Assembly: GCF_023701485.1 (NCBI RefSeq)
Contig: NZ_JAMQBK010000039.1
Span: forward strand, 62,001-126,000
Source of the DNA: Aporhodopirellula aestuarii
GTDB taxonomy: Bacteria > Planctomycetota > Planctomycetia > Pirellulales > Pirellulaceae
Direction of reading: 5' to 3'
DNA: 64,000 nt
This document shows, one piece after another, positions 7,445 through 32,649 of the stretch. The translations under genes were made by a program, and so were the position numbers. Under the pieces are notes generated by a model that did not search any database, was not told the origin of the DNA, and saw only the letters and a list, made by a program, of their open reading frames with translations. Within the stretch, counting starts at the first letter, position 1. The number at the start of each line of letters is the position of its first letter.

Positions 7445-7482
7445 TTGCAAAAAGGTAAAGAAGGGCCGAGCGTGCTCGGCCC
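7445..7482 (-). terminator. rho-independent terminator of the replication-gene operon
   Basis: On the minus strand GGGCCGAG-CACG-CTCGGCCC (8-bp perfect stem, 7463-7482) is followed by TTCTTTACCTTTTT. It lies just downstream of the DUF3987 gene and separates that operon from the integrase gene. Confidence 0.75.
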
Positions 7483-7609
7483 GTGTGGCCTTGGACAATC
7501 AGTCCAGGGGTAAATGTTTGGCAGGTGCAGCAAGGTCAATTGGTTTCTCTACTTAAGCTGCTCCTGAGTTCATTTCACGAAGTAAAGAACTGTATGTTTA
7601 ACGCGAAGA

Positions 7610-10596: not shown

Positions 10597-10844
10597 TTTG
10601 CAGCCTCCGATTCGCGTTTTGGTGAACATTCGATGCTGTTGACGTGCATCGTGATCACGTCGGGGCGGAACCGAACCGTCCCTCCGATAACGACCTTTGC
10701 GGATGCTGGTAGGACGCCGCTAAGGATCCAGCGGTCAATTGTCCTTTCAGTCACCCCGCAGTACTTGGCGGCGTCTTTTCTTTTCCACAGCCCATCCGCT
10801 GTTGCCGGATTTTCTTTCGATATTGCCACGAGGCAATCTCCCAT
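10593..10844 (-). CDS. excisionase/MerR-like helix-turn-helix protein
   Basis: 83 aa. LWKRKDAAKYCGVTERTIDR followed by W and a short wing (VRFRPDVI) matches the HTH_17 excisionase/MerR type. It is the first gene of the operon that encodes the primase and DUF3987 protein. It could act as recombination directionality factor for the integrase or as operon regulator. Two palindromic sites lie just upstream (10927 and 11024) and are plausible targets of this or another regulator. Confidence 0.75.
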   Translation of the reverse strand: MGDCLVAISKENPATADGLWKRKDAAKYCGVTERTIDRWILSGVLPASAKVVIGGTVRFRPDVITMHVNSIECSPKRESEAAK

Positions 10845-14342: not shown

Positions 14343-16160
14343 TTAATGACTGTTTCCGGTGCCGCCACACGCCGGACATGAGACCTTTCCGAGGTTGCAA
14401 CGGGGGCAGTCCTGTTTGAATGTTTTGGGAGCGGAAATAGGGCTACCATCGACCGAGCGGCCGACAATGACGACTCTGCGAATGCTCGTCTTTCCGTTGA
14501 TGCAGCTTGGACAGGTGACGTATGTTCGGCCCCCACACCATAGACAACAATCGTCGGCAAGCAGCGAATGCTGAGTTGCCGATCGGTCACCGCCTGATGA
14601 TCCGCCTGTTGAAGGGGCCGACGGTGGAGAAGGTCGAGCGATCGCGTAACAATGCACCATCAGCACCGCTTCGCGACAGGCTTCAATCGTGTCAGCAAAC
14701 GTCGCGTGTGTCGCCAAGATGGGGCTGGGAAGTTCGACACCGGAGTCTTCGGCGAACCTCGCAGCGTCCTCGGGCAAGACGGCGTAGTTGCGGACTTCGT
14801 TCTGACGGTCAGTCGCGTAATTGACGCCTGCGACTCGCCCGGAAAGATCGACGCACGGACCGCCGCTATTGCCCGGCTCGACGGTCGCGGTGTGCAGCAT
14901 GTTCTTCCCGTCGATCATAAACTTGCTGATGCTGCCGCGGTTGGACATCAGCGATGGTTCGTAGCGACCGGGAAGCGGGTATCCCAATGCCACGATCTCT
15001 TCTTCCTGCCGCGGATTGCTCTTGCGGATATGCAATGGTGGGACATCGATCGATTGGTCGAGCTTCAAGATTGCCAGATCAATGTGGACGTCACTGCTAA
15101 CAGCCAGGACCGTTGCCTTGACTTCCAACCCGTGGTCGTTGGTCAGCAGAAACACTTCAACGTCTTTAACGACATGCCGATTCGTCATCGCGTACTGCGG
15201 AGTCAACAAGAAGGCGCTTCCGGAACTGACCAGAGTCAGCTCGTCGAGACTGACCGGAGCAGTGTTACCGGTCGTTTCCATGGAATCGCTGTCCGATCCG
15301 TCTGATGAACTGGTGTTCGAACTTTCCATCTGAAAGTGAAACGGATCGTGAGCAAAGGTATAATGCAATCGACTCTGAACTCGCGGTCCGGGTTCGGGAT
15401 CGCCCAGACCCACCACAGTCTGAAGCGTGCGACGGGCACCCCCGAGATCAATCTTGCTGGACAGTAGCAGCGATGCGTTGTGGTGCGTGGCGAACGACAG
15501 CGTCCCCGGCGTGGCTTCGCCGGACAGTTTGAGAAAATTGGCGAAGCCTTCGGCACTGCCGTTTCGAGCCGCGACGACGGCTTGGTTGTTGTAGACTGAA
15601 GCGAGCGTTTTGGTGTGAACGCCTGGAAAATGCTGTTGAACTTTTTTGATCGCGGAAATAACTCTTTGGTTGATCCGAATCGCTTCTTTGATCTCCACTT
15701 CCTTTCGCGTCTGTACCGGCTTGAGGCCACCAAGGTAGAAGTCCGAAACGAGTCCACTGGGAGACGACTTACCGATTGCTTCAAGGGCAGCCATCAACGA
15801 AGCGTTTCGCAAATTATCGGTTTCGAGCTGCGAAACAATGCTACTCGCTTGATCGGCCGACTGACGAAGAATGTCGCAAGCTTCGAGGTACTCACGGTCG
15901 GCTTTGCTGAGCTTGTTTCTTTGCATCACAACGGCTCGTTTGCCGGTGTGAAGCTTGACGGCAATTTCGTTGAAGTCAACCATCTGGGCGTCGACCGAGT
16001 GCCGACCGCTGACGTCGGTCCAACTCCGGCGTTGAGACAGGTTTTGTGCCGAGGTCGGGCTCACCGTAGCCACCGAACAAGCAAGCCATAAAGCGACGCC
16101 GTAAAATGACGCTTGCTTTAAAACGTGACATGGCTCAACGATAAGAGGATAACAGTGCAT
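14343..16160 (-). CDS. secreted SHD1-domain trypsin-like protease with DnaJ-type zinc finger
   Basis: 605 aa. A signal-like hydrophobic stretch ends at PTSAQN (about residue 39). An SHD1-like domain follows (RRSWTDVSGRHSV to KLSKADREYL, about 44-92), common in planctomycete secreted proteins. After a helical region, a trypsin-like domain (about 305-480) shows all three catalytic residues: His in TNRHVV, Asp in HIDLAIL, Ser in EPGNSGGP. The C-terminus has four CxxC pairs (CLWC, CPSC, CPRC, CPAC, about 540-600), like the DnaJ central zinc-binding domain. The combination suggests a periplasmic or surface protease acting on misfolded or bound proteins. It is not tightly linked to neighbouring genes. 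Confidence 0.85.
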   Translation of the reverse strand: MHCYPLIVEPCHVLKQASFYGVALWLACSVATVSPTSAQNLSQRRSWTDVSGRHSVDAQMVDFNEIAVKLHTGKRAVVMQRNKLSKADREYLEACDILRQSADQASSIVSQLETDNLRNASLMAALEAIGKSSPSGLVSDFYLGGLKPVQTRKEVEIKEAIRINQRVISAIKKVQQHFPGVHTKTLASVYNNQAVVAARNGSAEGFANFLKLSGEATPGTLSFATHHNASLLLSSKIDLGGARRTLQTVVGLGDPEPGPRVQSRLHYTFAHDPFHFQMESSNTSSSDGSDSDSMETTGNTAPVSLDELTLVSSGSAFLLTPQYAMTNRHVVKDVEVFLLTNDHGLEVKATVLAVSSDVHIDLAILKLDQSIDVPPLHIRKSNPRQEEEIVALGYPLPGRYEPSLMSNRGSISKFMIDGKNMLHTATVEPGNSGGPCVDLSGRVAGVNYATDRQNEVRNYAVLPEDAARFAEDSGVELPSPILATHATFADTIEACREAVLMVHCYAIARPSPPSAPSTGGSSGGDRSATQHSLLADDCCLWCGGRTYVTCPSCINGKTSIRRVVIVGRSVDGSPISAPKTFKQDCPRCNLGKVSCPACGGTGNSH

Positions 16161-16367: not shown

Positions 16368-16447
16368 GCCGTGGCGGAATTGGCAAGCACGCCGGGTTTA
16401 AGAAGCCAGCTCCTAATTCGGAATCCAGGTTCGGGTCCGGTCACCCC
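16368..16447 (+). pseudogene. decayed tRNA-Leu-like sequence
   Basis: GCCGTGGCGGAATTGGCA is characteristic of the 5' half and D arm of bacterial tRNA-Leu, and GGTTCGGGTCC resembles a T loop about 45 bases later. A 7-nt anticodon loop TTAAGAA (anticodon AAG, Leu) can be drawn, but the anticodon, T and acceptor stems each have mismatches and the 3' acceptor strand does not pair well. It ends at the stop codon of the ExbD-like gene. Probably a degenerate tRNA left by past integration; not a safe functional call. Confidence 0.45.
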
Positions 16448-17364
16448 TACTGCACCCGGCTTCGTCCATTGCCATAGACGACTTCAAGCGGTTCGCCTTC
16501 GCCTTGTACCCATAGGTCGTAATTCATGCCGAAGGATTTGAATGCGTCACGGACCGGTCCGAAATGGTGATAACTATCCGGGTAGACGGCGATGATGAGC
16601 GTGCCGTCTTCACGTGACAGGCGACGGGCAGTTTCGCGAATGGCGATGATCGATTTTTCGCTGCCCAAGGTGATACCTTTTCCGTATCGAGGCGTGATTC
16701 TGTAACCGTCTGACCCAGTGCCCGGGATAGGGGCGGATATGACGTGTTTGTCGAAGAAGTCGCCTTTCTCATCATCAGGCGACGCGACCAAAAATAATTC
16801 TTCGCCCGAAAGCAATATGATTCCACGTGTCCCGGCACCTCGACGTTCTAATGGGACCTGCATCGTTTTTGACTTCTCTTTTCGAACGATTTGCCACTCG
16901 GCTTTCGCGGTCGCCAGTTCGACGCTGGCTACTTCGAGTTCTTTCTCCGCTTGTTCCACTTGCTCGGGAATCGTGGCGGTTTCGGCGGCGATGTCCATCA
17001 ATTTTTTGCCGAGCTGCTGCCGCTGCTCGATGAGTTTCTTTTCGGTCGCGGAAAGATCCTCCAGTTCGTCGCGTCGATCGACGAGGTTGGACACTTCAGA
17101 ATCAAACTGGAATTCGGGCGTCGCGTCACGGACGCTTTGCAAATCGAGTAAGCGACTTTGTTGCTGACTGAATTCCAGTTCGAGCGTTCGCATCGTCAAC
17201 GCTGTGACTGGTTGGTCCGCGGATTCGGAGCCGCTCGGGTCGTGCCGGATTCTCGCCAACAGCGCTACTAAGATGGCCAAGAAGACGATGCCGCCAAACG
17301 TATTGCAAATCGTGTCCAGAAACAGGTCGAAACTATCGCCTTGATCGGATTCGCGACGTTTCAT
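16447..17364 (-). CDS. ExbD-like single-span membrane protein (second of pair)
   Basis: 305 aa. One transmembrane segment near the N-terminus (FGGIVFLAILVALLA, about residues 23-38) follows DLFLDTICNT, the ExbD/TolR arrangement with an acidic residue before the span. A long coiled coil covers about 65-160, and a compact C-terminal domain about 165-300 probably lies outside the membrane. It is the last gene of the seven-gene operon and overlaps the previous gene by 4 bp. By analogy with ExbB/ExbD and ZorA/ZorB it should form the stator partner of the MotA/ExbB-like protein encoded two genes upstream. It is longer than classical ExbD (about 140 aa). Confidence 0.75.
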   Translation of the reverse strand: MKRRESDQGDSFDLFLDTICNTFGGIVFLAILVALLARIRHDPSGSESADQPVTALTMRTLELEFSQQQSRLLDLQSVRDATPEFQFDSEVSNLVDRRDELEDLSATEKKLIEQRQQLGKKLMDIAAETATIPEQVEQAEKELEVASVELATAKAEWQIVRKEKSKTMQVPLERRGAGTRGIILLSGEELFLVASPDDEKGDFFDKHVISAPIPGTGSDGYRITPRYGKGITLGSEKSIIAIRETARRLSREDGTLIIAVYPDSYHHFGPVRDAFKSFGMNYDLWVQGEGEPLEVVYGNGRSRVQ

Positions 17365-18236
17365 CCTTGATCCAGTTCAAATAACAGTTGAATATCCGCG
17401 TCACTACCGATGACATCGAATCCGTAACGGATGGACGTAGACAGATTACGAGATCCGAACAGAGACGAACCTTGGGTGGAGTCGAAATATTCGCGCAAGG
17501 TTTGAAAGTCTTCGGCACCACCGGGAGCGACCAAAACCAGATAGTGAGACTTCTGAGCGTCGCGTTGTTTGATCGCCCTGATCAAGTCTTCGACGTCGAC
17601 AAAGGCGCGATTGACCTCACGATCGCCTTCCCGCATTGAAAGGCGTGCAGACCGACTGGGATGCTCGCCCAAACGCACGATGACTAAGGCGCGTCCATCA
17701 CGAAGTCTGTCGTTGTATAGCGGGGAATCATTGCCTGCAAGCCTTTGGGTGCGAGCCTTGAAGTCGGCGAGCGTCGATTGCACCTGCCGATTCTCAGCCT
17801 CGATCTTCCGCATTGCCGCTTCGGCTTGTAGCCGGGCAGATTGGTACCTCGACTCGGCGTCCTCAATTTGTCGCTCAACGGCGGCGAGTTGACTGGTGAG
17901 TTGTTCATTGCGGCTTTGCTGTTTTTCGATTCGCTCGAGCAGCACTTCCTCAGTCACTGTCGATGACATCGCGATCGCCTGATTCTCTTTCTGTTGACGC
18001 TGCCGCATTTGTTGAAGTTCGGCTTCAATCGCATCGGCGTCAGCGCGGGTTTGGTCAATGACTCGCATGATCGCGGCGGCATCCCCGGCGGGGGTTCGTG
18101 ACGCCGCTTCGACCTTTTCGAGTAATTCCAAGATCATGATCAGCGTGATCAGGATAAAGATCCCTACCACGGCGGTGATGATGTCTTGAAACGCAAAGAA
18201 GGATACGCCCGGCCCGCCAGATTTTCGACGCATCAA
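17361..18236 (-). CDS. ExbD-like single-span membrane protein (first of pair)
   Basis: 291 aa. The N-terminal span FFAFQDIITAVVGIFILITL (about residues 13-35) with an Asp in FQD matches ExbD/TolR-type proton-channel partners. A coiled coil (about 55-165) is followed by a folded C-terminal domain (RALVIVRLGEHPSRSARL onward, about 180-290). The ATG follows the stop of the MotA/ExbB gene directly, with no spacer, and its stop overlaps the next gene. Two different ExbD-like subunits with one ExbB-like subunit is an unusual stoichiometry at the gene level. Confidence 0.75.
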   Translation of the reverse strand: MMRRKSGGPGVSFFAFQDIITAVVGIFILITLIMILELLEKVEAASRTPAGDAAAIMRVIDQTRADADAIEAELQQMRQRQQKENQAIAMSSTVTEEVLLERIEKQQSRNEQLTSQLAAVERQIEDAESRYQSARLQAEAAMRKIEAENRQVQSTLADFKARTQRLAGNDSPLYNDRLRDGRALVIVRLGEHPSRSARLSMREGDREVNRAFVDVEDLIRAIKQRDAQKSHYLVLVAPGGAEDFQTLREYFDSTQGSSLFGSRNLSTSIRYGFDVIGSDADIQLLFELDQG

Positions 18237-19181
18237 TCACCTCCCTTGGGAAGTTGCGGCGGATGCGCTCGCTGGTATCGTCGCTTGCGGCGACGGACTC
18301 AACTCCGGCGGTGCCTCTTGCAAACCTTGCGTTGCGTCGTCGGCCCGCATGCGGGAAACAATTTGACTGAGGCAGTAATCCTGGCACTGATCCAGGAACT
18401 CCTCTTCGGCTTTCTTTTGTACCGTGATCCAAAGCTGCAAGAACAACGCGATGACCAACGCGACCAAAGTCGTTTCAAACGCCGTCGATAGTCCCCCGGT
18501 CACCTCCCGAAGCGAACCGATGATCCCCGCCACGTCGCTGTCGTCGGTCAGCAGTGCCGAGAAATTGCCGATCGCGCCGGCAAGCCCCAGTACGGTTCCG
18601 ATGAAACCCAACACCGGAATCGCCCACAGGAAACCGGAGAGCATCCCGAACGAGGTCGCCGACGCCGACTCATCGCGATCTGCCATCGATTGCAAAACCT
18701 CGTCAACGTCACCGATGCGTCCCAGGTTTTTCAAGCTCGACAAAGCGATCAAAATTCTACGAAAGACTAGAAACTGATCGGGGAAGTCCGCGATTGCGTG
18801 GATCGTCGTCAGTACGTCCGGGGCGGTCTGTCGGGTCAGCACGAAGCGTTGATTTTCCGGTACAACCGGCCGGGCCAACGCGCGGCGCTGGACTGATAGT
18901 TTCATGCGTTTGAAGATCAGAATCACGGCCGCCCAAAAACCCAGCAACACCGCGGCGTACTGCGTCGGTCCGCGGTCCAGCATCATCGATCGAAACGGGC
19001 TCGCGGGTAGCGATGAAAGGATACCGAAGAAAATTGCGGTTAGGATCAACGCGATCAGACCGCAGAACGCGGTACGGACGGACGTCCCCGCCGCGGGCGA
19101 TAAACCGAACATCGCTTCGGGGTCGCCTTGGCGGACGGACAAACGCTCGGGCGAGTGCGGCCAAGGATTGGAGGCTTGCAT
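18237..19181 (-). CDS. MotA/TolQ/ExbB-type proton channel protein
   Basis: 314 aa. Four hydrophobic segments: about residues 35-55, 74-92, 177-206 and 234-255. The third contains LWAIPVLGFIGTVLGLAGAI, the hallmark of the MotA/TolQ/ExbB family, and the fourth AFETTLVALVIALFLQL. The region between spans 2 and 3 is cytoplasmic and larger than in ExbQ-type proteins. The product should form a pentameric ion channel around the ExbD-like spans encoded immediately downstream and convert proton or sodium flow into movement or signal. Nine bp separate it from the GYF gene upstream. Confidence 0.87.
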   Translation of the reverse strand: MQASNPWPHSPERLSVRQGDPEAMFGLSPAAGTSVRTAFCGLIALILTAIFFGILSSLPASPFRSMMLDRGPTQYAAVLLGFWAAVILIFKRMKLSVQRRALARPVVPENQRFVLTRQTAPDVLTTIHAIADFPDQFLVFRRILIALSSLKNLGRIGDVDEVLQSMADRDESASATSFGMLSGFLWAIPVLGFIGTVLGLAGAIGNFSALLTDDSDVAGIIGSLREVTGGLSTAFETTLVALVIALFLQLWITVQKKAEEEFLDQCQDYCLSQIVSRMRADDATQGLQEAPPELSPSPQATIPASASAATSQGR

Positions 19182-19190
19182 CAGGTTACC

Positions 19191-20129
19191 CTAAGTCGTT
19201 TGGGCGATGGTGATTAAAAGAAAAATGGCCAAGACGATTTGATTAGCGATAATAAACGCGGCCGATAGTCCGGCAAACAGCCATAGCCGGTGTTCGTGCC
19301 GGGCGATGGCGACGGAGTCATTCGATTCGCCTCGACGGTTCATCTTTGAAAGGAGCTTGGTCATTTCGATCGCTGTCATCAGCAGCAGGCCGGAAAAGAT
19401 CAGCGAGCTTACGGCCCATAGTGCGATTAGCCCGCCACTTTCGAATCGTCGGGCTGCCACCGCGGTGTAGATTTGGAAGAGTCCCGCAGCGAAAGATTCG
19501 GCCGCGAATATGTACGTGATGATGCAAACGGTCAGCACCCAGAACGCACGCCGCGAACGTAGGTCGCGTAGCGCGTAACCCCCATCGTCCGAATCGGTGA
19601 CCGCCGGGGACGACGTAAAGCTTGAAGCCAGATCGCGGGTTACAGCCGGCTGAGACATGATCAATGCAGCTGGCAAGACTTCGCGGGCGGGCTTCCAGTG
19701 TTCCATGCCGTGGCGCCACACAGGTGTTTCGGCATTGATGCGTCGCTCGCTGATCCAGCGTCCCAATGTATGTTCGTCGATTGGTCCCTGCCGATTGCCG
19801 TCGATGGCGATGTACCAATCACCGGCCGGTGCGTCGGCCACTGTGGCGGGATCCGAAGCAGGCTGGGAGTTCCCAGTGACTTTGGAAGGGCCGGTTTCTT
19901 CGACGATGACGTCATCGTTCGTTGATCCCCGCGTGCCGGACGATTGTTGCTCCAATTGCCACTGATCGATCCGCTTCCATTGATTGTTTCCGGCCGGGGA
20001 AATTTCATCCTTGGGGCCCAATTGTTGCCGCGAGATCATGCGATCAATCTGCGTCCGGTCAAACGGACCAAGACGACGTCCCTGACGACGGACCTGGAAT
20101 TTTTCGTAGGCTTCGGCGGTGGAACTCAT
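19191..20129 (-). CDS. membrane protein with two GYF_2 domains
   Basis: 312 aa. Two GYF_2-type modules: FQVRRQGRRLGPFDRTQIDR (about residues 11-55) and DWYIAIDGNRQGPIDEHTLG (about 106-155), each ending in the tryptophan motif (QWKRIDQW; HWKPA). The C-terminal half has three to four membrane spans (about 193-310). GYF_2 domains are small adaptor modules common in planctomycete membrane proteins and probably bind proline-rich or short linear peptides; the GAP1 protein of the same operon has a Pro-rich linker that could be a partner (inference). Its start overlaps the preceding gene by 4 bp. Confidence 0.8.
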   Translation of the reverse strand: MSSTAEAYEKFQVRRQGRRLGPFDRTQIDRMISRQQLGPKDEISPAGNNQWKRIDQWQLEQQSSGTRGSTNDDVIVEETGPSKVTGNSQPASDPATVADAPAGDWYIAIDGNRQGPIDEHTLGRWISERRINAETPVWRHGMEHWKPAREVLPAALIMSQPAVTRDLASSFTSSPAVTDSDDGGYALRDLRSRRAFWVLTVCIITYIFAAESFAAGLFQIYTAVAARRFESGGLIALWAVSSLIFSGLLLMTAIEMTKLLSKMNRRGESNDSVAIARHEHRLWLFAGLSAAFIIANQIVLAIFLLITIAQTT

Positions 20130-23128
20130 GGAGAGACGCTCACAAGGGAGTGTTGGTGACTAGGCAGATTGATCGCCACAGGCGTCGCCGTTCCGCTGCT
20201 GAGAAAAATTGGTTCCCCTGCGGTCATGGCAATCGATGAGTCGGTGACTTTCATTTGGCCACTTTCGAATGTTCCGAAGGGGATCCATCGGCATTTGAGC
20301 GGATCGGCAGAATCTCGGCGAACGACCATCAATATGCCTGACCCCAGCGATTCTGTGGGTTCCCAGTAGTGAACGACCCGCGTGGACGCCGGACTACTCA
20401 GTTTCGACCCGCCGACGATATCCCAAATTCCGACGGGCCGAATTCGCATGTGAGCCAGTCGTTTGGCTTCTTGCCGCGGGTCGCGATGGGCTTGATAAAG
20501 GGCAGACAAAGCCGGCATTATTTTCTGGACGACCAAGTCGGTCGGCCGCACCGAGCGTGCCGCCGGTCGATGCCAGTCCTCCCAATCCGCCTGGCGAGCG
20601 ACGAGGGCATGATGGACTTTGGCGAATTGATCCCGGGCCGCTGAACCTTCCATGATCTTTTCAATTGCTTGGGCCAGCAAGATTTCTTTGATCGTCGAAT
20701 CGAGTTTTTCACGGCGACATAGATTGGCTAGCCACTTGAGCATTTCGCCGTCCCAATCGGCCAAGGCATCGGCGCGGGCGGCTTTCCATTTAGCCTTTAG
20801 CGTCACGACACTAGCGGCCGGTTCCAGTTCAATCACCAGCGGTGTACTGAGTGTTTCCTGCTCGATCGCCCCGTCGCCGGTCTGGACGACTTCCACCCGC
20901 GAAAGCAGCGGTTGATTCTCGCCAATCGAGAATTTCTCCCGCTCACTGTCGTAGAAGTTTTTGTAGATATAGACTCGTTCTCCCTGGCCGCCCCTTTGCG
21001 TTACGGAGATGATTTGTGAAAAAAGCGATTGATCCAGAAATCTCTCAAACTGATCCAGAATCGACTGCCGACGTTCCGCCTGATCGATGCACGCCCGCAA
21101 CGATGCCGGAATATCGAACGGTGGCGTGACGCAGACTTCGGAAAGTTCTCCGCCGGACTGCGTCGCATTTGAAATCAACTCCCGTTGGAATTGTTTCGAG
21201 AAGATCTCCTGCACCCGCCGGATGTGTAGATTCCAAAGGTCCGCCGTCTCCCAGAACTCGGCCGAATCGAGCGTTTGACGGAACCCGGCGGATCTCCGAT
21301 CGACGGACAGTTCGGAGATATAGTTTTCCATTCGTGATTTTAAGTTGGACAACGATCGGGCGGCCAGCAGATCTTCAAGCGCTTTAGCGGATCGAATGAG
21401 CAATACTTCCTGCTCGTGCATGCGGGTCTTCAATGCAGCAATGCGTTGGATCTGGTTATCTCCTTCTTGTTTTGCTGAGAGGCTGGCGTAGGGGAAATCG
21501 GCAAGGCTATGTTTGATACTGACGGTCAATTCGTTGAGCTTGGCGGCTTGGCTGCGGAGATCATCCAGTTCAAACTTGGCGAGCTGTGCTTGGGAATGTT
21601 GAGGCAAGATGTCGCCGGTTTCGCGAAGCGCACTGATCAACGATTCGGTGTGGTTCTTTCGGCGGCCGTCGACGAAGCGTGCGTATCGGTCGCGTTGTTT
21701 CAGAACGCGGAGTTTCTCATCGTCGGTGGTCGCTTCCTCTTCCAGCCGAGAGAGCGTCGAAGGTTCGAGTGCTTCATCGTCGATGGCTTCTAATTCGGAT
21801 ATCTGTTGATCAAAGCGAGCCGCCCGATCCTCTTCGCTTTGCATCATCGACTGATGCAGCACAACCAGTTCAGCCACTTTTGGATCCGATACCAGTTTGG
21901 GTTGCGACCGCCGGACCGCTTCGATGAATTGGCTCGCCTCGTCCAACGCCCCTGAATCCAAAATTCGGCGAAGTTGACCGGATACCGTGGCAACCTTCTC
22001 GGCGTACCCACGTCGGATTTGCCACGTCACCAGAAACCCGATCAGCAGCAGGGTCGCAACCGCCACGGCCCCGACGGCGAGTTGAAACTTTCGCTTTCCA
22101 CGGGTTTTCAAGTCGTCGATCGTGGCCCGGTATCGATTGAATAGTTCCGGCGGCAAAGGTTCGTCAAACGTGATCGCTTTCTGATACGCAGATTCGATTT
22201 GCGGTACGGTCACGCCGGAACGATCCATCGTGTTTTCAAGTTTTGCGATGGCCGAGTGCCGGGCCGCAACGCGTTGCTGCTCGGCATTCAATTCGGCAAC
22301 ATACTCGAGCCCCGGGCTCGCGATCACTTCCGCCTCGGCGGCGACCGATGACGGCCCGAATTGTTCGACGATTTCGTCACGCAGCGTCGTGTAGAGGGCG
22401 GCCGCTTGGCGGGTTCTCGCTTCGTCGAATTGGTCCATCGATTCCTGAATCGCTGCGGCGGCAGCGATAAGGTCTTCTTGCTTTCCAGCCAGACGCAATT
22501 GATGGATATGCCGATTGACCGCTGTCTGCAACGACGGCGGCGGGGCGGTCTGCCAGGTATCAGCGAGTTCTCGCTTTAACAACATCAACTTCGCGAGGTC
22601 GTCTGACCTTACAGCTTGCTGGACGTCGGCGGAAAGTTCTTTCAACCGCGCTTTCTCGTGCGCGTCGATGTCATCGATCCAGTGGGGACTAGTCGGATCG
22701 GCCTCTGCGATCGCCCGAAGCGTTCGCAGACGCCAGACTAAGGGCGCGCGAGCCAGGACCAGTTTGCGTTGACGTTTAAGCAACCCGTCGATCGATTGCA
22801 ATTCGACCATCGCATCGCCGAGCACCTCGATCGCCTCGGTATCGACAACCGATATTGGAGGAAGGTCGTAAAGCTCCGTGAGCTCCATCAACTCATCGAG
22901 CCGCGGGATGGAAAGCTCGTTAGCTTGATCGATCAACGACGGTGACGATCCAATGATCGCCATCGCCTCGCTGCGAAGTCCACGACGGACCAAATCGACG
23001 GCATCGCCGAGTTTTTGATTGACGATCGATAACTCGCCTTCGTATTGCTCGACGACCTCGCGAAGATCTTCTTCGGAGATGCTGTGGCTGTCGAGCAATC
23101 GATTGACGCGTCGGGTGATGGCGGACAT
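20126..23128 (-). CDS. large helical single-span membrane protein of the GTPase operon
   Basis: 1000 aa, family not recognised. The N-terminal 340 residues are helical and cytoplasmic in character. One span lies at about residues 350-372 (LAVGAVAVATLLLIGFLVTW), followed by a long helical and coiled-coil region and a more globular end containing IWDIVGGSKLSSPAS and WIPFGTF segments. No enzymatic motif is visible. The length and single span suggest a scaffold linking cytoplasmic and outer faces of the membrane complex. It sits between the GAP1-N2 gene (20-bp gap) and the GYF gene (4-bp overlap). Confidence 0.75.
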   Translation of the reverse strand: MSAITRRVNRLLDSHSISEEDLREVVEQYEGELSIVNQKLGDAVDLVRRGLRSEAMAIIGSSPSLIDQANELSIPRLDELMELTELYDLPPISVVDTEAIEVLGDAMVELQSIDGLLKRQRKLVLARAPLVWRLRTLRAIAEADPTSPHWIDDIDAHEKARLKELSADVQQAVRSDDLAKLMLLKRELADTWQTAPPPSLQTAVNRHIHQLRLAGKQEDLIAAAAAIQESMDQFDEARTRQAAALYTTLRDEIVEQFGPSSVAAEAEVIASPGLEYVAELNAEQQRVAARHSAIAKLENTMDRSGVTVPQIESAYQKAITFDEPLPPELFNRYRATIDDLKTRGKRKFQLAVGAVAVATLLLIGFLVTWQIRRGYAEKVATVSGQLRRILDSGALDEASQFIEAVRRSQPKLVSDPKVAELVVLHQSMMQSEEDRAARFDQQISELEAIDDEALEPSTLSRLEEEATTDDEKLRVLKQRDRYARFVDGRRKNHTESLISALRETGDILPQHSQAQLAKFELDDLRSQAAKLNELTVSIKHSLADFPYASLSAKQEGDNQIQRIAALKTRMHEQEVLLIRSAKALEDLLAARSLSNLKSRMENYISELSVDRRSAGFRQTLDSAEFWETADLWNLHIRRVQEIFSKQFQRELISNATQSGGELSEVCVTPPFDIPASLRACIDQAERRQSILDQFERFLDQSLFSQIISVTQRGGQGERVYIYKNFYDSEREKFSIGENQPLLSRVEVVQTGDGAIEQETLSTPLVIELEPAASVVTLKAKWKAARADALADWDGEMLKWLANLCRREKLDSTIKEILLAQAIEKIMEGSAARDQFAKVHHALVARQADWEDWHRPAARSVRPTDLVVQKIMPALSALYQAHRDPRQEAKRLAHMRIRPVGIWDIVGGSKLSSPASTRVVHYWEPTESLGSGILMVVRRDSADPLKCRWIPFGTFESGQMKVTDSSIAMTAGEPIFLSSGTATPVAINLPSHQHSLVSVSP

Positions 23129-23148
23129 GGATTTCTTAAATGCTAATC

Positions 23149-25899
23149 TTAATTTGGGGGACCATAGACCAATTCTGGGAAGAAGAATAATTCGAAGGTC
23201 TCGACGGTTATAAACTTAGGTTTCTGTCCAAGCGTAGTTGCCGAGCGGGAAGTATTTTCCAAGGTGTATCCAAAGTCGAGTCGTGCTCCGAAATCCAAAA
23301 CACCTTCGTTCCTCATAAGTTCATCGTAGCTGTCTCGAAGCATTTCGAGGTTTTCGATGTGCTCATCGATCTTTGTTCCGATCGCCACGTTGGGCGTGAC
23401 GAATTTGCTAAAGACTTGAACGATGTCCAATTTGACCGATTTGAGGTCGATCACTGTCTGATCGGATTGCGTGATGTATAGCTCGTCGAGTTTGCCAGCG
23501 GGTGACTGGATAACGACTGCCGTCAATTTGTCGATAGCGGCGTTCCATTTATCAGCTTCTTTTTTCCGTCTTTCTTCTTCTCGCCTTTCTTTACCTTCAG
23601 TCCTTTTGACCTCATTTCGCCACTTTTCGATGTCGCTTTTCGCCTTCTCGGATTTGCCAAGAAATGCTGTTCTTAGGATTCGACTGGACTCGAATGTTAC
23701 GTCTTGTTGTTCGACAAATCGGTCGAGCTGTTGCAGTATCGGGTACCGCTGACGAACGGCAGGCGGAATATTCTTTTGATTGAGGTTGAACTTGAGGATG
23801 ATTTCGGAAGCACCACGCGTGACCGAGAGCCAACCCTCAAACCTACCTGGCAGCTTGACCGCGACATTCGATTGGGGCAGCTGAATCAGATCGCCATCGT
23901 CAACTTTCACTCGATTAATGGCTTTCAGGTTGTCTGCATTCACAGAGATCTCGCAGCGAGGCCTAATTTGAAGCCGGTCTTCGTTGCGACTGGAGTCACC
24001 ATCAAAGTGGATAAGCAGTCTATGCGAATCGCGACGACGTTTAAGCTCGGTGGCTAATTCTTCTCGCTTCGGATCCAATTGCTTCTCGAGCGACTCGGCG
24101 AGTTCTATCTTTTTAGCGGATAGTTCTTCGTATAGTTTCAATTGGCCCTTTTGTAGGTAGTCCTTCTCCGTCGCGCGAACCTTCTTGATCGTTTGTTCGA
24201 CGGCGACGCGATTGGAAAGCCGCAAAATTAGTCCCGGCTGTTTTTGTTTGTCATCTTCCCACTTCTTCGCGTCAACCTTCCAAATTTCAATCAGCTCGAC
24301 TAGACGCTCCCGGTCCGCTTGAAGATTGTTCAAAGGCACGTGTTGTTTCAACGCTTCGATTTCTTGCTTGCGAGCCTCAATGAAGCTGGCTAACTGTTTT
24401 TCCCCATCTTCGGCTCGCGCCCACATTGCCAACTGTTCGTCGGTTGGTTGCAGGGAAAGTTCATAAAGTTGTTTGTATCGGTCGTTTAGCCGCGTCAGTT
24501 CGTTTTTGACTTTCTTGGAGAACTTGGTGATCGAGTTTTCGTGATCGTTACCCAGGAAGGCTTCACCGTCGAGAATTCTCTTGGCGAGATCTTCAAGCGA
24601 TTTCCGTTTCTCGTCGTCGGCCTGCTTCGGCTCGGCTGCTTTGGCATCGGCGTTGGCATCCGCCGCCGATCTGGGTTCCATCACGGGTTCCGGTTCCAGC
24701 TCAACGTCCGGTTCCGGCTCGACATTCGCGGATACGTTCACTTCCGGCGGGTTCTCGATGCCGGCCGCAGCGTTCAGTTCGGCCAGTAAGTCGTCTGAAT
24801 CGGTACGTAACAAGTAAAAGGTCACGCCCCCGCCGAGGCACAACAACAGTAATGCCGCGACCCCGAGGAGGGCCCAAACATGGTTTTGAAACGGCGAAGA
24901 TTTAGGCTGGAACGGCGGCGGTAGTTGGCCCGGTCTAAGTTGTGGTGGCGCAAGTTGGGGCGGCATAAGTTCGGGCGGAGGGACCGGGAACCTGGGTTCG
25001 CCCGTATCGGAAACCGTCGGTTGACCGGTGGATTCAGGGAGCTCCATTCGCGCGGGAGTCGATGCTGCCGGCACCGCAGCCGGACCGACGGTTTCGGACA
25101 GAGCGAACTGCCCCGAACGGGCCGCGTCGACCAGCGGACTGGGAGGCGGAGTGCCCAAGTTGCCGGACGCTATATCGAGTGTCATTGCCGTTGGCGGTAC
25201 CGCCAACGCTTCGGGTGATCCCGCGATCATACAACGCAAACGACAATTCACTCCCGGCGGCAATTCACCGGTGTGCGTTGAAAAGGTAGCGTTCCAGCGT
25301 TTCGATTCGGGAAGTAGACAGATTGCCTCGTCGACCAAAGCCAACAAGTCAGCGTTCTGCTCAGGTCGGTATATCAAGTAAAGCGGTGGACCGGGAGCTT
25401 GGCTTTCGAAAATCGACGCCACGGTCCCGGCCCATCCGGCGTCGCCACTGAGTCGTGCCCAGGTTTGGGCGATCCGTTGGGGCGAGTCGGCCTGAGGGAT
25501 CGTCTTCAGCTCGGGTATCTTGCGAACCTCGCCGTCCCACGCCTCGATGGCGAACCCCGGTTGTCGCAGAACCGCGGCTGGCCCGCCGGCGGCTTGGGCG
25601 GTCGTGGCGACGACGACGTGATAGGCGATCTTATTGGTTCGGCCGGTGTAATCGGGTGGCGCCTCGGCGATTCGAGACAGCACGTTGACCGGACGTCCGG
25701 CCACCTTCATTCGCACGTGCATGTAGTTGACAGGGGATTGCCCGTCGCCGTCGGCGTGGCGATACGCCGACAAACTCTCCAGCGGCCCGACCAACCCGGC
25801 TGGCATGCTTTCGGACATGGCCACCGTGCAGAATCCGCGGCTTCCCGGGCGGAGCCCCCGCGGAGCAGAGGTGTAAACCAATTCGCTACTCTTAGACAT
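23149..25899 (-). CDS. GTPase-associated protein with GAP1-N2 domain and membrane span
   Basis: 916 aa. The N-terminus matches the GAP1-N2 type: ELVYTSAPRGLRPGSRGFCTV and LESLSAYRH, then the conserved RWNATFSTHTGELPPGVNCR region (about 205-225). A Pro-rich linker (about 270-345) leads to one span (about 349-371), then a long charged coiled coil (about 420-640) and a C-terminal domain. GAP1 proteins are named for their gene linkage to a distinct GTPase, and such systems are predicted to act in biological conflict; here the GTPase gene is directly upstream with a 1-bp gap. The protein probably carries the GTPase signal to the membrane complex. Confidence 0.82.
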   Translation of the reverse strand: MSKSSELVYTSAPRGLRPGSRGFCTVAMSESMPAGLVGPLESLSAYRHADGDGQSPVNYMHVRMKVAGRPVNVLSRIAEAPPDYTGRTNKIAYHVVVATTAQAAGGPAAVLRQPGFAIEAWDGEVRKIPELKTIPQADSPQRIAQTWARLSGDAGWAGTVASIFESQAPGPPLYLIYRPEQNADLLALVDEAICLLPESKRWNATFSTHTGELPPGVNCRLRCMIAGSPEALAVPPTAMTLDIASGNLGTPPPSPLVDAARSGQFALSETVGPAAVPAASTPARMELPESTGQPTVSDTGEPRFPVPPPELMPPQLAPPQLRPGQLPPPFQPKSSPFQNHVWALLGVAALLLLCLGGGVTFYLLRTDSDDLLAELNAAAGIENPPEVNVSANVEPEPDVELEPEPVMEPRSAADANADAKAAEPKQADDEKRKSLEDLAKRILDGEAFLGNDHENSITKFSKKVKNELTRLNDRYKQLYELSLQPTDEQLAMWARAEDGEKQLASFIEARKQEIEALKQHVPLNNLQADRERLVELIEIWKVDAKKWEDDKQKQPGLILRLSNRVAVEQTIKKVRATEKDYLQKGQLKLYEELSAKKIELAESLEKQLDPKREELATELKRRRDSHRLLIHFDGDSSRNEDRLQIRPRCEISVNADNLKAINRVKVDDGDLIQLPQSNVAVKLPGRFEGWLSVTRGASEIILKFNLNQKNIPPAVRQRYPILQQLDRFVEQQDVTFESSRILRTAFLGKSEKAKSDIEKWRNEVKRTEGKERREEERRKKEADKWNAAIDKLTAVVIQSPAGKLDELYITQSDQTVIDLKSVKLDIVQVFSKFVTPNVAIGTKIDEHIENLEMLRDSYDELMRNEGVLDFGARLDFGYTLENTSRSATTLGQKPKFITVETFELFFFPELVYGPPN

Positions 25900-25900
25900 G

Positions 25901-27211
25901 TTATCCCGAGCCTGCTGCGTCTTGTTTCCGACGCCCGACGTCGATCAGTCCGCGGAAACGTCGGGCAAGCAAATAAATTAGGCTGACCTCGGCCCACTGA
26001 GGCCGGATGTCTTTGGGGCGGATGCCCAGTTGCCCACTTTCAGGATCCAATTCTGGTCGCCGCCCAGTCGCCGAAACCGGCATGTAAATCACCTCGCTGC
26101 TTACCGTGGCCGCCGCCGCGGTCATTTCGGGACAGGTTCGACGCAGCAGGTCTCGCAGCTTGGCAGACGTTTGAAGGATCCGATCCTCATCGATCGCTTC
26201 ACGGTCGTGATCGACTTTACCGAATGGCGGATCGGTGGCTATGTCCGGTAGCAGCTTTCTCCAAGCGTCCCACTTAGTCACCAAGACGACCAACGTGGCA
26301 CCAATTTTTTCGTCTTCCCGCATACCGGCCTTTTGACGGACTCGGTTGATTGCTTCGAGCAGGATGCTGTCTTGGCGGATCGTCTGCCCGCCGGAACGTC
26401 CCGCCCCGGTCATTTGTGGGTCGTCACTCTTGCCTTCGCATACTGCGCGAAATCGAGGATCCTGCGTCGGATCAAAACAAAACAATAAAGCTTCACTGCG
26501 GGCCAAGTGGCCCGTCACCGGTCCGGTCGATTCGTCGGCGCCGGGTAAGAACGATTCGCCCGCGTTGTCGTACAGGCAAAGCACCCTTGATAGGGTGGCT
26601 TTCTTGTCTTCGTTGGGGTGGCCTTCACCCGGACTGAGCGTGAACAGGAATGGCCGCGGAAGATTGACCGCCCGTTCAGCCATTTGCACCCGGTTGTACA
26701 GCGTGCCCTGTTCTTCGGTCTTGGGAAGCCACGTCAACTGGTCAGGCTTACTGGACAGGAACTGACGTTCCTCGTACTCGATCAGCCTCGCGTTCATTGC
26801 AGCGTCGGCGTCGGTCAGCAGCATTTGAAACCGCTCAGCCATTGACCGCCGTGCCTGCCAAATCATTGAAGCGAGTAGGTAGCTCTTGCCGCTGCCCGGT
26901 GCCCCGAGGATTGAAAAGAAAACCACGGGAATTTCGAACAAGCGACGCGGCACCCTCAGGTGACATCGGGGGCACCCGGTTTCGGTAGCTTCGGAACCTT
27001 CCGGATCGATTGCACGGTTGTCGGGCGTAAAGCGTGAGGGCAAGAATCGCCGCAGTTCGCTTTCACCTAGTTTTTCGTCGCCATAGAGCGACGGGTGTGT
27101 AGCGATCCACACGGCGTCTTCAGGAGCGAACTCGGCCCAGCAATGCGGGCAAACAAGCTTTTCGAGTAGCCGCATGCTAGTCGGACTCGAGGAAGGGGAA
27201 GCGGAAGTCAT
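25901..27211 (-). CDS. zinc-ribbon P-loop GTPase (double-GTPase-2 type)
   Basis: 436 aa. The zinc ligands C21/C24 (CPHC) and C80/C83 (CPRC) frame an insert. The P-loop GAPGSGKS lies at residues 103-110, a G3-like DNAGE follows LCLY, and TKWD in LVVLVTKWDAW is a G4 motif specific for guanine. The zinc ribbon placed before the P-loop and its linkage to a GAP1-N2 gene point to the DO-GTPase2 family. It heads the seven-gene operon and is presumably the sensor or switch. Start at 27211 is supported only by frame; Met 27175 is an alternative. Confidence 0.82.
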   Translation of the reverse strand: MTSASPSSSPTSMRLLEKLVCPHCWAEFAPEDAVWIATHPSLYGDEKLGESELRRFLPSRFTPDNRAIDPEGSEATETGCPRCHLRVPRRLFEIPVVFFSILGAPGSGKSYLLASMIWQARRSMAERFQMLLTDADAAMNARLIEYEERQFLSSKPDQLTWLPKTEEQGTLYNRVQMAERAVNLPRPFLFTLSPGEGHPNEDKKATLSRVLCLYDNAGESFLPGADESTGPVTGHLARSEALLFCFDPTQDPRFRAVCEGKSDDPQMTGAGRSGGQTIRQDSILLEAINRVRQKAGMREDEKIGATLVVLVTKWDAWRKLLPDIATDPPFGKVDHDREAIDEDRILQTSAKLRDLLRRTCPEMTAAAATVSSEVIYMPVSATGRRPELDPESGQLGIRPKDIRPQWAEVSLIYLLARRFRGLIDVGRRKQDAAGSG

Positions 27212-27398: not shown

Positions 27399-28142
27399 AT
27401 GAGCAAGTTTCGTTTCGTCCGAAAGAACGGAAAGGTCCTCGGACCGTTGACCTCCGACCGCATCAACCATCTATTTTCCGAAGGTAAGCTCGCGCCCGAC
27501 GACGAACTGGGCGAAAACCATGACGGACCGTGGCAAAGCATGACGACGCTTCATGAACGAATCGAGCGGACCAAAAAGAAGAAGCAGGCCGAAGCGGAAA
27601 AACGTCGTGCTTTGCGGCATTCCACTCCTAGCGAGGTGCCCGCCATTCCGGATGTCAACGAACCGACTCAAAACCTCGAAGCGTCCGAAGCGTCCGAAGC
27701 GTCCGAAGCGTCCGAAGCGTCCGATGCGTCCGATGCGTCCGATGCGCTCGCGAGCATTGCGGATTCCCCAGGTCCGCCAGCCACCTACATCCCAACTGCA
27801 ATGGTTTCCTCGCCAGCAGTTGCCGTAACACAACAGCGATCGGCAACTTCGCCAAGTACTTGGTTAACGAACGTGCTGCTGGGAATGATCTTGCTTGTCG
27901 GCACTTTAATCGCAGTGCTCCTCGCTTCGCAATTCTTAGGAGTGTCCGAGACTGCCACCAAGGCAGCGCGAACACGATGGGAATACCAAATTGCAGCGCC
28001 GAACGACGAACTACTTGAATCACGACTTAGATCGCTTGGTGACGCCGGGTGGGAACTTGTCAACGCGCGGCGTGCTACATCCGAGTTCGGTTCAGCGAAA
28101 TATGAAATGATCTTTCGTCGCCCAAAACAAGATGGCGGATAG
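27399..28142 (+). CDS. GYF_2 and DUF4177 membrane protein
   Basis: 247 aa. A GYF_2 domain (FRFVRKNGKVLGPLTSDRIN, about 3-50) is followed by a charged stretch, a low-complexity Glu-Ala-Ser/Asp-Ala-Ser linker (about 95-117), one span (about 155-177, VLLGMILLVGTLIAVLLA) and a C-terminal DUF4177-type module (RWEYQIA then LGDAGWELVNA, about 190-245). It is transcribed away from the GTPase operon and shares the GYF_2 domain with its fourth gene, so it may be an accessory part of the same system. The linker is encoded by a 9-bp tandem repeat. Confidence 0.78.
   Translation: MSKFRFVRKNGKVLGPLTSDRINHLFSEGKLAPDDELGENHDGPWQSMTTLHERIERTKKKKQAEAEKRRALRHSTPSEVPAIPDVNEPTQNLEASEASEASEASEASDASDASDALASIADSPGPPATYIPTAMVSSPAVAVTQQRSATSPSTWLTNVLLGMILLVGTLIAVLLASQFLGVSETATKAARTRWEYQIAAPNDELLESRLRSLGDAGWELVNARRATSEFGSAKYEMIFRRPKQDGG
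27681..27743 (+). repeat. 9-bp tandem repeat, 7 units, coding
   Basis: Four GCGTCCGAA units followed by three GCGTCCGAT units, in frame, encoding the Glu/Asp-Ala-Ser linker. Length change by slippage would keep the frame. Confidence 0.95.
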
Positions 28143-28453: not shown

Positions 28454-30925
28454 TCAATACTCATCGAATGGATCAAATCCTCCTCCAAATGGATCTTGAG
28501 TGTTCTCTTGTTCGCGTTGCAGGTTACGAGTTCTCAGCAACTCCATTTCAACGAGCTTAGATAGATTGGTCGCAGCATCGTGCACGCCGTCGCCGTTTGA
28601 CGGAATTGCAAGCTTGAGAGCAACCAAGTCCAATTTCTCGCATTCCTTCAGCAATTCCAAACGTTCTGCTATGCCTAGTGATGCGGGACTACTGCGGTAC
28701 ATCGTCCATTTCGCCAAAGCCAGCTCATAGTAGGCACGAGAGAAGTCAGCTTTTGCCTTTTCCGAAACTACGTCATCTGCAACTCGTAGGTAATCGGCAA
28801 CTGCATGGGACCAGTCCAAAACTCGTGCATAGGCTCGTCCACGAGCTTGATAAAAACTGCGATTATGCAACCCCGACTCGATGGTTTCATTGCAGGCTCT
28901 AACAACCTGCTGGTATTTGCCCTCTGCCCATAACTGCCGAATGGATCGCATGGCGGATTGCATATCGCTTTCGATCGGACTGGGCGATGCGGATTCCGAT
29001 ACAACTTTCAATTGATTGTCGGATGATCCTGAACCCGTAGAGATTGCTTGCGGAATAACGGTTTCATTTCCTGTAGTTGTCTTATGATGTGCAGCGTTCG
29101 AGACTTCCTTCTCGTTACCTCGACGCTCGGCATCGACGGTTTCATTCGAGCGAGGAACCGTCGGTGTGTAGATATCCCACGACGGATCGTGTTGCTTTTG
29201 CGTCAATTCGACTCTGTGCTGTCGGTTCATCAGGTGATCGGCGATGACTGCGATCAGGCAACCGGCAACGACTACGATGGGAATAGCACTAACAAATCCG
29301 ATCGCGCTCAGCATGGTCCAATGATGCCTAGACCCTGTTGAACTATGCTGGCTTACATTTTGTGCGTGCGTACTGTTTGGGGAACTGCTTGCCCCCGAGC
29401 TGTTGGCCTCGATTGAGGCGAACGTCTCATTGATAAGACACGAAGTTTGTTCTGATTGAGCGGGCCGTTCTGATTGAGCTTGTTGATTATCTCGCGTTGG
29501 CGTCTCAGCGGCGTTCCCCAATTCTTTGATCTCCACCTCCGGCTGGGCGATACCGACGTCGACTGCGGTCGACGCCGCGTCTGTTTCTTCGGGCACATCT
29601 CGGAATAGTTCAGCCGACAACTCATCAGTCGTTGGAAGGTCAATCGAGGCTTCGTGTTTCGCTGCGGCTGTATCCAACGCTTCTCCAAGAATTTCTTTCT
29701 CCACTGAAGCGGTTTCCTCACCTAGCCGCAGGCTTTCACGTCGTTGTAATAGATAACGCCGTTTGTTGTCAGAGAGTGGACCATCGGCCATTGCTGCTCC
29801 TAGCGCCTCCGTATAAGCACGCATCGCGGCACTATTATTACCAACGGAGCATTCTTCTCTGCGTCCTAGGATTGCGGCACCCAGAACCGTCGCGAAATCA
29901 CCCGACGCCCACGTGTAGGTACGTTGCGGAGCGAGCTGTTCGATGCTTTCTTTGAGTCCCGCGAGTTGGGAAGTGCCGCCAACTAATATGATGGAGGGTG
30001 CGTCGACACCTGCTTTACTGCACTTGTTGATGTATTCTGTGAGCGCCTCATTTGCTTTGGTCGTGAAATCTTCTGCGGCTGATTGAAAGATACGCCGAGG
30101 AATCTGATGGGATTTGCCTTTGAAGACCAGTGTCGCAACATCCAGGCCGCGTGAGTAGAACAGCTTGAGTGACTGCATTTTGACGAGGAAACTCTCGCGA
30201 ACTCGCGAAAGTACCGCGACTGTTGATTCGTTCTTCTGAGAATTCAACAGAGCGGCAAACGCTTGGTCGTCAATATCGTTGCCGCCGACCATTAACCCCG
30301 ACGGGAGCACGTCGCTATGAGGTAAGAAACGATCGTCGTCCCAACTGACGAGTGAGAAATCGGTCGTTCCACCTCCAATGTCACAGACGACAATGTGATC
30401 AGCCGGACGCTGGTGCACTTCACTTGCCCAAGCCCGCGCGGCCGCACTGGCTTCGTCCACTAAGCCAACCTGGGTAAAGCCTGCTGCAATTGCGGCATCC
30501 TCCAAACACTTCCGCTGACGCGGGGAAAACAGCACCGGCACCGCGATGGTGCATGTGTTGATCGCGCAACCATGAAAAACTTCTGATTCACATCGCTGGC
30601 GAATTTCTGCAAATAGTTTGGTTACTAATTCTTCCCTGGTAGGGGTGAGACGTCCTGGGCCGATGAGCTTGACACCAGGGCTGCCAATTTCTCGCTTAAG
30701 TCCACGAACGATGCCGCCAGGATCTTGGTCAATCATCAGCATCGCATCGTCGCCGATCGTGACCACACCAGCACCTTCGACAGGCACATGAAACACCGAC
30801 GGGATGATGTCCCGGTACTCCTTACCAAGACTAATCAATCTCGGTTCGTCTCGTTTCTCGTCGTAATACGCGACCTTGGTTCGGGTGGTGCCGAAATCAA
30901 TCGCGATTGTTGGTCCGTGGTTCAT
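28454..30925 (-). CDS. Hsp70-like ATPase with membrane span and TPR-like end
   Basis: 823 aa. The N-terminal 360 residues are an actin/Hsp70-type ATPase: phosphate-1 IAIDFGTTRTKVAYYD, phosphate-2 VVCDIGGGTTDFSL, and the adenosine motif ILVGGTSQLAGLK. The usual Hsp70 substrate domain is absent. Instead there is an acidic linker, one span (about 548-572) and a C-terminal helical part resembling TPR repeats (about 655-745). It is therefore not a general chaperone DnaK. The start overlaps the end of the dynamin-like gene upstream by 4 bp; it closes a peptidase-dynamin-dynamin-Hsp70 operon. Confidence 0.83.
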   Translation of the reverse strand: MNHGPTIAIDFGTTRTKVAYYDEKRDEPRLISLGKEYRDIIPSVFHVPVEGAGVVTIGDDAMLMIDQDPGGIVRGLKREIGSPGVKLIGPGRLTPTREELVTKLFAEIRQRCESEVFHGCAINTCTIAVPVLFSPRQRKCLEDAAIAAGFTQVGLVDEASAAARAWASEVHQRPADHIVVCDIGGGTTDFSLVSWDDDRFLPHSDVLPSGLMVGGNDIDDQAFAALLNSQKNESTVAVLSRVRESFLVKMQSLKLFYSRGLDVATLVFKGKSHQIPRRIFQSAAEDFTTKANEALTEYINKCSKAGVDAPSIILVGGTSQLAGLKESIEQLAPQRTYTWASGDFATVLGAAILGRREECSVGNNSAAMRAYTEALGAAMADGPLSDNKRRYLLQRRESLRLGEETASVEKEILGEALDTAAAKHEASIDLPTTDELSAELFRDVPEETDAASTAVDVGIAQPEVEIKELGNAAETPTRDNQQAQSERPAQSEQTSCLINETFASIEANSSGASSSPNSTHAQNVSQHSSTGSRHHWTMLSAIGFVSAIPIVVVAGCLIAVIADHLMNRQHRVELTQKQHDPSWDIYTPTVPRSNETVDAERRGNEKEVSNAAHHKTTTGNETVIPQAISTGSGSSDNQLKVVSESASPSPIESDMQSAMRSIRQLWAEGKYQQVVRACNETIESGLHNRSFYQARGRAYARVLDWSHAVADYLRVADDVVSEKAKADFSRAYYELALAKWTMYRSSPASLGIAERLELLKECEKLDLVALKLAIPSNGDGVHDAATNLSKLVEMELLRTRNLQREQENTQDPFGGGFDPFDEY

Positions 30926-32646: not shown

Positions 32647-32649
32647 ACA

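Follow-up and report, generated by a model that had tools for sequence, protein, structure and literature searches.

A conserved operon of Aporhodopirellula aestuarii that joins a GTPase and a GAP1 protein to an ExbB-like channel: a candidate GTPase-gated envelope motor with a two-protein axle

We analysed a stretch of 64,000 nucleotides from Aporhodopirellula aestuarii (the window), in which seven minus-strand open reading frames (ORFs), separated by gaps of 1, 20, -4, 9, 0 and -4 bp, form an operon at 16447-27211. This operon is real, conserved and partly anticipated in print; what is new is that a motor-like output module stands on a system of the GAP1-N2 kind. We propose, giving the idea about an even chance, that the operon encodes an envelope motor which is driven by ions, gated by the GTPase and built on an axle of two proteins, a variant of the GAP1-N2 GTPase systems. 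The original prediction, made from the letters of the window, had described these seven ORFs, and its coordinates and gaps were all reproduced exactly; it had also seen neither nuclease nor helicase, and no Pfam domain of either sort passes the cut-off in the seven genes. The genes are the following (lengths in amino acids, aa; the membrane spans of all proteins were predicted by a hydropathy script; the basis of each description is in brackets).

25901..27211, minus strand: GTPase of 436 aa, cytosolic, with a zinc ribbon, DO-GTPase2-like (motifs and a sub-threshold DO-GTPase2 match)
23149..25899, minus strand: GAP1 protein (GAP1-N2 and GAP1-M) with one predicted span, 341-359 (Pfam)
20126..23128, minus strand: 1000-aa protein with one predicted span, 350-368, and a C-terminal part of about 630 aa (hydropathy, alignment)
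19191..20129, minus strand: GYF-GYF adaptor, predicted to cross the membrane three times (GYF_2, hydropathy)
18237..19181, minus strand: channel subunit of the MotA/TolQ/ExbB type (ExbB-like) with four predicted spans and a short tail (MotA_ExbB)
17361..18236, minus strand: ExbD-like axle protein A, with the motif F[AS]FQD, a single predicted span, a coiled coil and a C-terminal domain (position, Asp18)
16447..17364, minus strand: ExbD-like axle protein B, with an LDTxxNxFGG motif, one predicted span, a coiled coil and a C-terminal domain (position, Asp17)

The evidence that these genes form one unit comes from their conservation. Scanning genome contigs yielded 551 relatives of the ExbB-like protein, the best 80 of which were kept as loci (numbered with L) and scored for gene content with iterated profiles; the sample therefore favours near relatives, and L051 is the same place as L029, L081 as L032, L082 as L031 and L126 as L034. 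Relatives at 43-63% identity have the same neighbours, and the genomes G006 and G032 have all seven genes in the same order. Both axle genes are carried by 64 of the 67 loci with at least 3 kb downstream, ordered A then B in 62; in L064 and L079 the axle genes form an inverted block. Where 8.5 kb or more is available upstream (42 loci), the GTPase, the GAP1 protein and the 1000-aa protein are all present in 38 loci, and the order GTPase-GAP1-1000-aa-ExbB is kept in 34 of the 42; L084, one of the four exceptions, has only a fragment of the GTPase, at the far end of its contig. Clustering of the neighbours over the 80 loci (window slice up to 32000) revealed no further family in more than 10 loci.

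Close matches to the ExbB-like protein (E<=1e-113, a cut chosen after seeing the gap to 1e-69) occur in 31 of 297 genomes of the class, as 32 matches, while PF20013 was found in 145 of the 297; the absences of the ExbB-like gene are soft, since at most 8 candidates were scored per genome. Of the 32 matches, 29 have a GAP1-N2 gene in the same orientation 6,012-8,679 bp upstream (median 6,346). For the other three there is no GAP1-N2 among the matches listed on that contig, and two of them are close to the upstream end of the contig. This pairing used 44 of the GAP1-N2 matches listed, the weakest GAP1-N2 matches not being among those listed. Chance adjacency was rejected on the strength of these pairings and of the 38 of 42 long-flank loci; the same two counts bear on the single system supposed by the original prediction, the ExbB/ExbD-like genes being indeed kept beside the GTPase and GAP1 genes, and the conserved order together with the correlated divergence described below upholds this view. 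Within the genus, an operon-type ExbB-like gene with its neighbours was seen by eye in 3 of 13 genomes, G010 having the four-gene form only. By record titles, members are found in Planctomycetota, in Desulfamplus (L117) and in metagenome-assembled genomes labelled Verrucomicrobia, Lentisphaeria and Victivallales, labels which can be wrong.

The second body of evidence concerns A and B, which are homologous to each other (HHalign, 99.5%). We picked genes by their profile match and by their position after the ExbB-like gene, and not by motif, in the window and in 73 of the 80 loci (L058, L063, L067, L074, L102, L111 and L115, with fewer than two such genes of at least 190 aa, were omitted). The 74 first-position and the 74 second-position genes separate without error, with a support of 1.0. 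In one and the same alignment column, before the span, an Asp is found in 74 of 74 first-position and in 74 of 74 second-position genes; it is Asp18 in A and Asp17 in B of the window. The alignments A4 (69 rows) and A5 (68 rows) and an earlier tree of A and B (76 and 74) had been gathered by motifs, and an invariant Asp in them would be circular, as the motifs contain it. The two ExbD-like proteins are hence separate ancient lineages, which is new here.

A related arrangement was observed in cassettes with a long ExbB-like protein (L035-L046, and C99:398726-402034 in the own genome), which also have A/B-type pairs and are possibly one-Asp motors. As in the operon, in most of them the ExbD-like genes after the ExbB-like gene are one of the A-type and one of the B-type; unlike in the operon, the ExbB-like protein is 448-629 aa long in 11 of the 12 (1088 in L043), and there is no GTPase or GAP1 match in those stretches. 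In 10 of the 11 that were read, their A-type protein carries Ser where the Asp would be (L043 has the Asp, L046 was unread). Since these cassettes are paralogous, this means that the axle Asp of the operon is not kept by descent alone.

The ExbB-like protein (314 aa) matches MotA_ExbB in Pfam with an E-value of 1.9e-9 and 37.8 bits, over the cut-off of 22.9, and its last predicted span ends at residue 252. Across 81 sequences, eight residues never vary: P189, G192, G195, T196, G199, T228, G230 and T238. Of the families named by the original prediction, GAP1-N2, MotA_ExbB and GYF_2 stood, as did GAP1-M in addition, all over their Pfam cut-offs; DO-GTPase2 was found under its threshold and ExbD not at all.

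The GTPase displays a GAPGSGKS P-loop, DNAGE, TKWD and SATG, plus paired cysteines which are conserved across the alignment. In 39 rows, the window copy included, G103, G108, K109, S110, D215, G218, E219, K313 and D315 are invariant, and 28 of these 39 proteins match DO-GTPase2 at E<=0.01 (best 1.5e-8). Among solved structures its profile gives a weak match to Der/EngA (E 3.5e-4). The window copy has no predicted span, and neither have 41 of 43 relatives. GYF domains lie inside the GTPase ORF of L101, L106 and L117, and FHA matches 2 of the 39 GTPases (by eye, L106 and L117); these domains tie the adaptor theme to the switch.

The GAP1 protein matches GAP1-N2 (2.6e-22) and GAP1-M (2.7e-9) in Pfam, both over the cut-off; GAP1-N2 is present in 38 of 38 members and GAP1-M in 35 of 38. 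One span is predicted in 40 of 44 relatives and two in the other 4. Its C-terminal half, which probably lies in the periplasm, is the least conserved stretch measured family-wide, 0.16-0.17 compared with 0.55 for GAP1-N2. No relation was found between this half and the C-terminal part of the 1000-aa protein, and fn3/FNIII has no match in ten proteins of the window (E<=1) nor in the 38 GAP1 members (E<=0.01). In G141, G278, G090 and G155 we observed two GAP1-N2 genes, tandem copies about 4 kb apart, upstream of one ExbB-like gene.

In the 1000-aa protein the N-terminal 345 aa are better conserved, and an Arg/Lys-rich stretch, with R346 at 96%, precedes the span; all 54 relatives examined have one predicted span, near residue 350. 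No known domain was found in it by Pfam, and its family has 38 matches among solved structures, all weak. The GYF-GYF protein matches GYF_2 over two stretches (Pfam, 6.8e-24).

Between the window and its counterpart in Rhodopirellula sp. JC639 (L047), dN/dS is 0.05 for the GTPase, 0.09 for the ExbB-like protein, 0.15-0.16 for A, B and the 1000-aa protein, 0.29 for the GYF-GYF protein and 0.31 for the GAP1 protein, whose windows from residue 361 onward reach 0.24-0.70 at identities of 43-66%. The pairwise distances of six of the proteins (the GYF-GYF protein left out) correlate over 39 complete sets, with r of 0.66-0.91.

Part of the operon has a precedent. Excerpts of a paper in eLife 2020 (PMC7159879) predict pairs of GAP1 and DO-GTPase proteins to be conflict systems, and mention GAP1-N2 versions from planctomycetes that are linked to a GYF pair, itself fused with a region rich in transmembrane segments. 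As far as these excerpts go, the likeness consists of a spanned GAP1-N2 and GAP1-M protein beside a zinc-ribbon, DO-GTPase-like protein; unlike those systems, the operon has no FNIII-repeat protein that we could find, and it adds the 1000-aa protein, the ExbB-like protein and the two ExbD-like proteins. The names MotA, ExbD, ExbB, TolQ, TolR and MotB are absent from the main text of PMC7159879, its supplements being outside the scope. Novelty is thus reduced, since the GTPase-GAP1-GYF part is, going by these excerpts, already in print. Judged from titles and the opening of abstracts, no paper listed describes the combined operon or shows its two families, conflict-type GTPases with GAP1 and ion motors of the Tol/Exb type, together; the search covered neither subscription journals nor preprints. 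An ordinary Tol-Pal or Exb locus was considered and ruled out, as A and B are not PF02472 matches and the genome has ten ExbD places over the cut-off elsewhere.

In Myxococcus the Agl-Glt gliding machine is controlled by MglA, a small Ras-like GTPase, and its component GltJ contains a GYF domain. The one MotA_ExbB protein and the two distinct ExbD-like lineages of the operon may correspond to the TolQ-type and TolR-type proteins of the Agl-Glt set, the match to the TolR profile not being significant. In the excerpts at hand, AglR with AglQ and AglS provides the precedent of one TolQ-type and two TolR-type proteins (PMC3169522, PMC5349195), GltG carries FHA (PMC3169522), and the Agl motor serves both gliding and spore-coat assembly (PMC3858216). 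To the extent of these excerpts, the resemblance includes the single-span linkers, the control by a GTPase and the FHA/GYF theme; in contrast, AglQ and AglS are members of PF02472 whereas A and B are not, the GTPase is of a different family from MglA, and the 1000-aa proteins scanned have no TonB C-terminal domain. By analogy, the best reading is that the motor would work more like Agl-Glt than like Zorya.

The original prediction had also invoked Zorya. The MotA/ExbB-type channel of that comparison stands, and the kinship with Zorya proved merely generic. According to an excerpt of PMC11890865, Zorya too combines a MotA/ExbB-type subunit with a one-span partner whose Asp is important for function (for the evolution of MotAB see also the excerpt of PMC12505986); unlike it, the ExbB-like protein here lacks a long cytoplasmic tail and there are two partner genes instead of one. 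In PADLOC, the best ZorA match has an E-value of 4.4e-5, and A (ExbDa) matches ZorB at 0.061 over residues 15-87 only. ZorC, ZorD and ZorE are not listed for ten proteins of the window (E<=1) and ten more (E<=0.001); nor are ZorF and ZorG for the same 20, the presence of such models in PADLOC 2023 not having been checked. No peptidoglycan-binding domain is found in A or B (Pfam, E<=1), nor in the best 25 families of their relatives. Membership in Zorya is ruled out by the short tail, the lack of this domain and the lack of effector genes.

The machine that we propose would be built as follows. Several ExbB-like subunits (five, by analogy) would surround a heterodimeric axle that pairs one A with one B; both proteins would contribute a single Asp, located where the span begins, and ion flow would drive the complex. 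The single-span GAP1 and 1000-aa proteins would link cytosol and periplasm. The 1000-aa protein could be the force-transmitting partner, in a role like that of TonB or TolA, and the GAP1 protein the likely sensor of the motor system, because conservation is lowest in its outer half. The motor would be switched on or off by the zinc-ribbon GTPase, acting via the GYF-GYF adaptor. The stoichiometry, the ion flow, the membrane orientation, the sensing part and the gating of the motor by the GTPase are what we infer in this scheme.

Several results weigh against such a motor. Neither A nor B matches PF02472 (ExbD) at E<=1 in Pfam, while a search of the own genome with PF02472 gave 11 places, 10 over the cut-off and none inside the operon. 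Compared by HHalign with genuine ExbD/TolR, A and B score 1.5% and 1.2% (E 0.03-0.05), which is not significant; the reference alignment left out L142 and L144 of the ten own-genome places, which have no usable ORF. ExbD is absent from the best 25 of 209 families for A4 and the best 25 of 130 for A5, as well as from the best 60 of 652 and the best 60 of 616 chains when A and B are compared with solved structures, these best 60 being mostly coiled coils for both. Kinship with genuine ExbD is suggested by position, length, topology and the Asp, and the axle-like family has apparently diverged so far that the ExbD profile misses A and B. A profile of 7 ExbB-like rows retrieved no ExbB, TolQ, MotA or ZorA chain at E<=1 among solved structures, its one match being irrelevant, which weighs slightly on the same side. 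The GTPase of the window stays under the DO-GTPase2 cut-off of 27 (Pfam, E 0.0064, 16.6 bits), no TonB/TolA-type domain was detected in its 1000-aa protein or in nine relatives, and the match of the GYF-GYF protein to the GltJ model of NCBIfam (E 1e-4, 21.5 bits, far below the cut-off of 450) is merely due to the shared GYF domain. No dN/dS window exceeds 1, and the highest single one lies not in GAP1 but in the first GYF part, with a value of 0.73 and an identity of 67%; a GAP1 sensor does not account for this fast part, a slight point of the same kind. Correlated distances also carry species history. Finally, L126/L034 has GYF-ExbB-A-B only, which shows that the motor block can stand without a GTPase nearby.

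The operon lies where synteny within the genus has ended, a finding which, like the patchiness, rests on few genomes. The left 5.7 kb of the window holds ORFs common to 4 of 4 fetched relatives of the genus; to the right of a tRNA-Gln at 5876-5947, no window ORF of at least 110 aa matches these four at E<=1e-20, the integrase excepted, whose counterpart beside the tRNA-Gln of G006 is 25% identical. Two of the four stretches fetched proved to contain the tRNA-Gln. Nothing convincing within the window looks like a copy of its end that would mark the far end of an island. At 5876-10629 the tRNA-Gln, a tyrosine integrase, a DUF3987 protein and a weak DnaG-like protein make up an integrated element where synteny ends. 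Judged from sequence, this setting suits a mobile conflict locus without being a proof of one.

Other neighbours were noted. The stretch 13399-14166 holds a transposase-like fragment, rich in helix-turn-helix and judged by eye to be of the IS630 type, with an opposite ORF overlapping it. Directly downstream of the operon, at 14343-16160, an SHD1 and trypsin-like protease with a cysteine-rich tail has matches in 6 of the 80 loci (L047 at 79% identity; L048, L069, L105, L114 and L118 at 27-32%). On the plus strand, at 27399-28142, between the operon and the Hsp70-like gene, there is a protein with a single span; its GYF match is sub-threshold and its C-terminus Sp36-like. At 28454-34563 an Hsp70/actin-like ATPase with a predicted span has a 4-bp overlap with tandem dynamin-like GTPases, a pair upstream of the operon that gives LeoA/LeoBC matches in PADLOC; these genes are possibly a separate defence operon. 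They are not part of the system, since neither the dynamin pair nor the Hsp70-like gene finds a match at E<=1e-5 in any of the 80 operon loci, and the other 12 genomes of the genus contain no match to the second dynamin. In L033 (250-6748, on a contig that begins 250 bp upstream) an ExbB-like gene, a GYF gene (608 aa), A, B and an Hsp70-like gene were seen in a row.

The anatomy of the operon fits a force-transmitting motor better than depolarisation, the mechanism of the original prediction, in which the GTPase-GAP1 trigger of an anti-phage or conflict system opens the ExbB-like pore. To our knowledge, the known relatives of ExbB/TolQ are motors and not death pores. Moreover, a pore would not need two axle proteins, both with an invariant Asp, or such large parts outside the spans, and the dynamin pair and Hsp70-like gene do not travel with the operon; we consider the pore unlikely, even if it is consistent with the patchy distribution given above (31 of 297 and 3 of 13 genomes), with the position on the variable side of the integrase-bearing tRNA-Gln near the LeoA/LeoBC-like pair, and with the prediction, in the excerpts of PMC7159879, that GAP1/DO-GTPase pairs are conflict systems. 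The patchiness and the island position, together with the poorly conserved C-terminal half of GAP1, also argue against ordinary envelope work (Tol/Exb-like energisation, polymer transport or gliding-type movement) regulated by the GTPase and with no conflict role. Such work would agree with the strong purifying selection on the GTPase and the ExbB-like protein and with the analogy to the Agl motor (PMC3858216, excerpt); it is a possible explanation, hardly a probable one.

Very unlikely, in our opinion, is a mere adjacency of two modules, GTPase-GAP1-1000-aa and GYF-ExbB-A-B. It could invoke L126/L034, where only the second block is nearby; L066, L071 and L078, where the GTPase-GAP1-1000-aa block comes after the other; and L107 and L119, which have a 690-aa form of the 1000-aa protein and neither GTPase nor GAP1 nearby. 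In the genome of L119, a matching GTPase lies about 1.2 Mb from the locus (two matching GTPases are present elsewhere in the genome of L047). Against it stand the 38 of 42 loci in which the GTPase, GAP1 and 1000-aa genes lie beside the ExbB-like gene, and the divergence correlated across both blocks. Returning to the GTPase-gated motor, its purpose is most likely an accessory, mobile response to an envelope event, for example contact with a phage or a rival, and a putative defence role is plausible from the variable island and the patchiness. Doubtful, in turn, is the more specific idea that the motor is the effector of a conflict system, in which the GTPase and GAP1 would sense an envelope event and start, instead of a toxin or a nuclease, a machine that pulls or rotates and whose axle needs both proteins.

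The operon would join conflict-type GTPases with GAP1 to ion motors of the Tol/Exb type, and would show, in bacteria other than Myxococcus, a GTPase next to a motor with one channel and two axle proteins. The power source and the trigger of GAP1-N2 systems become testable by point mutants, in the two Asp and in the one P-loop.

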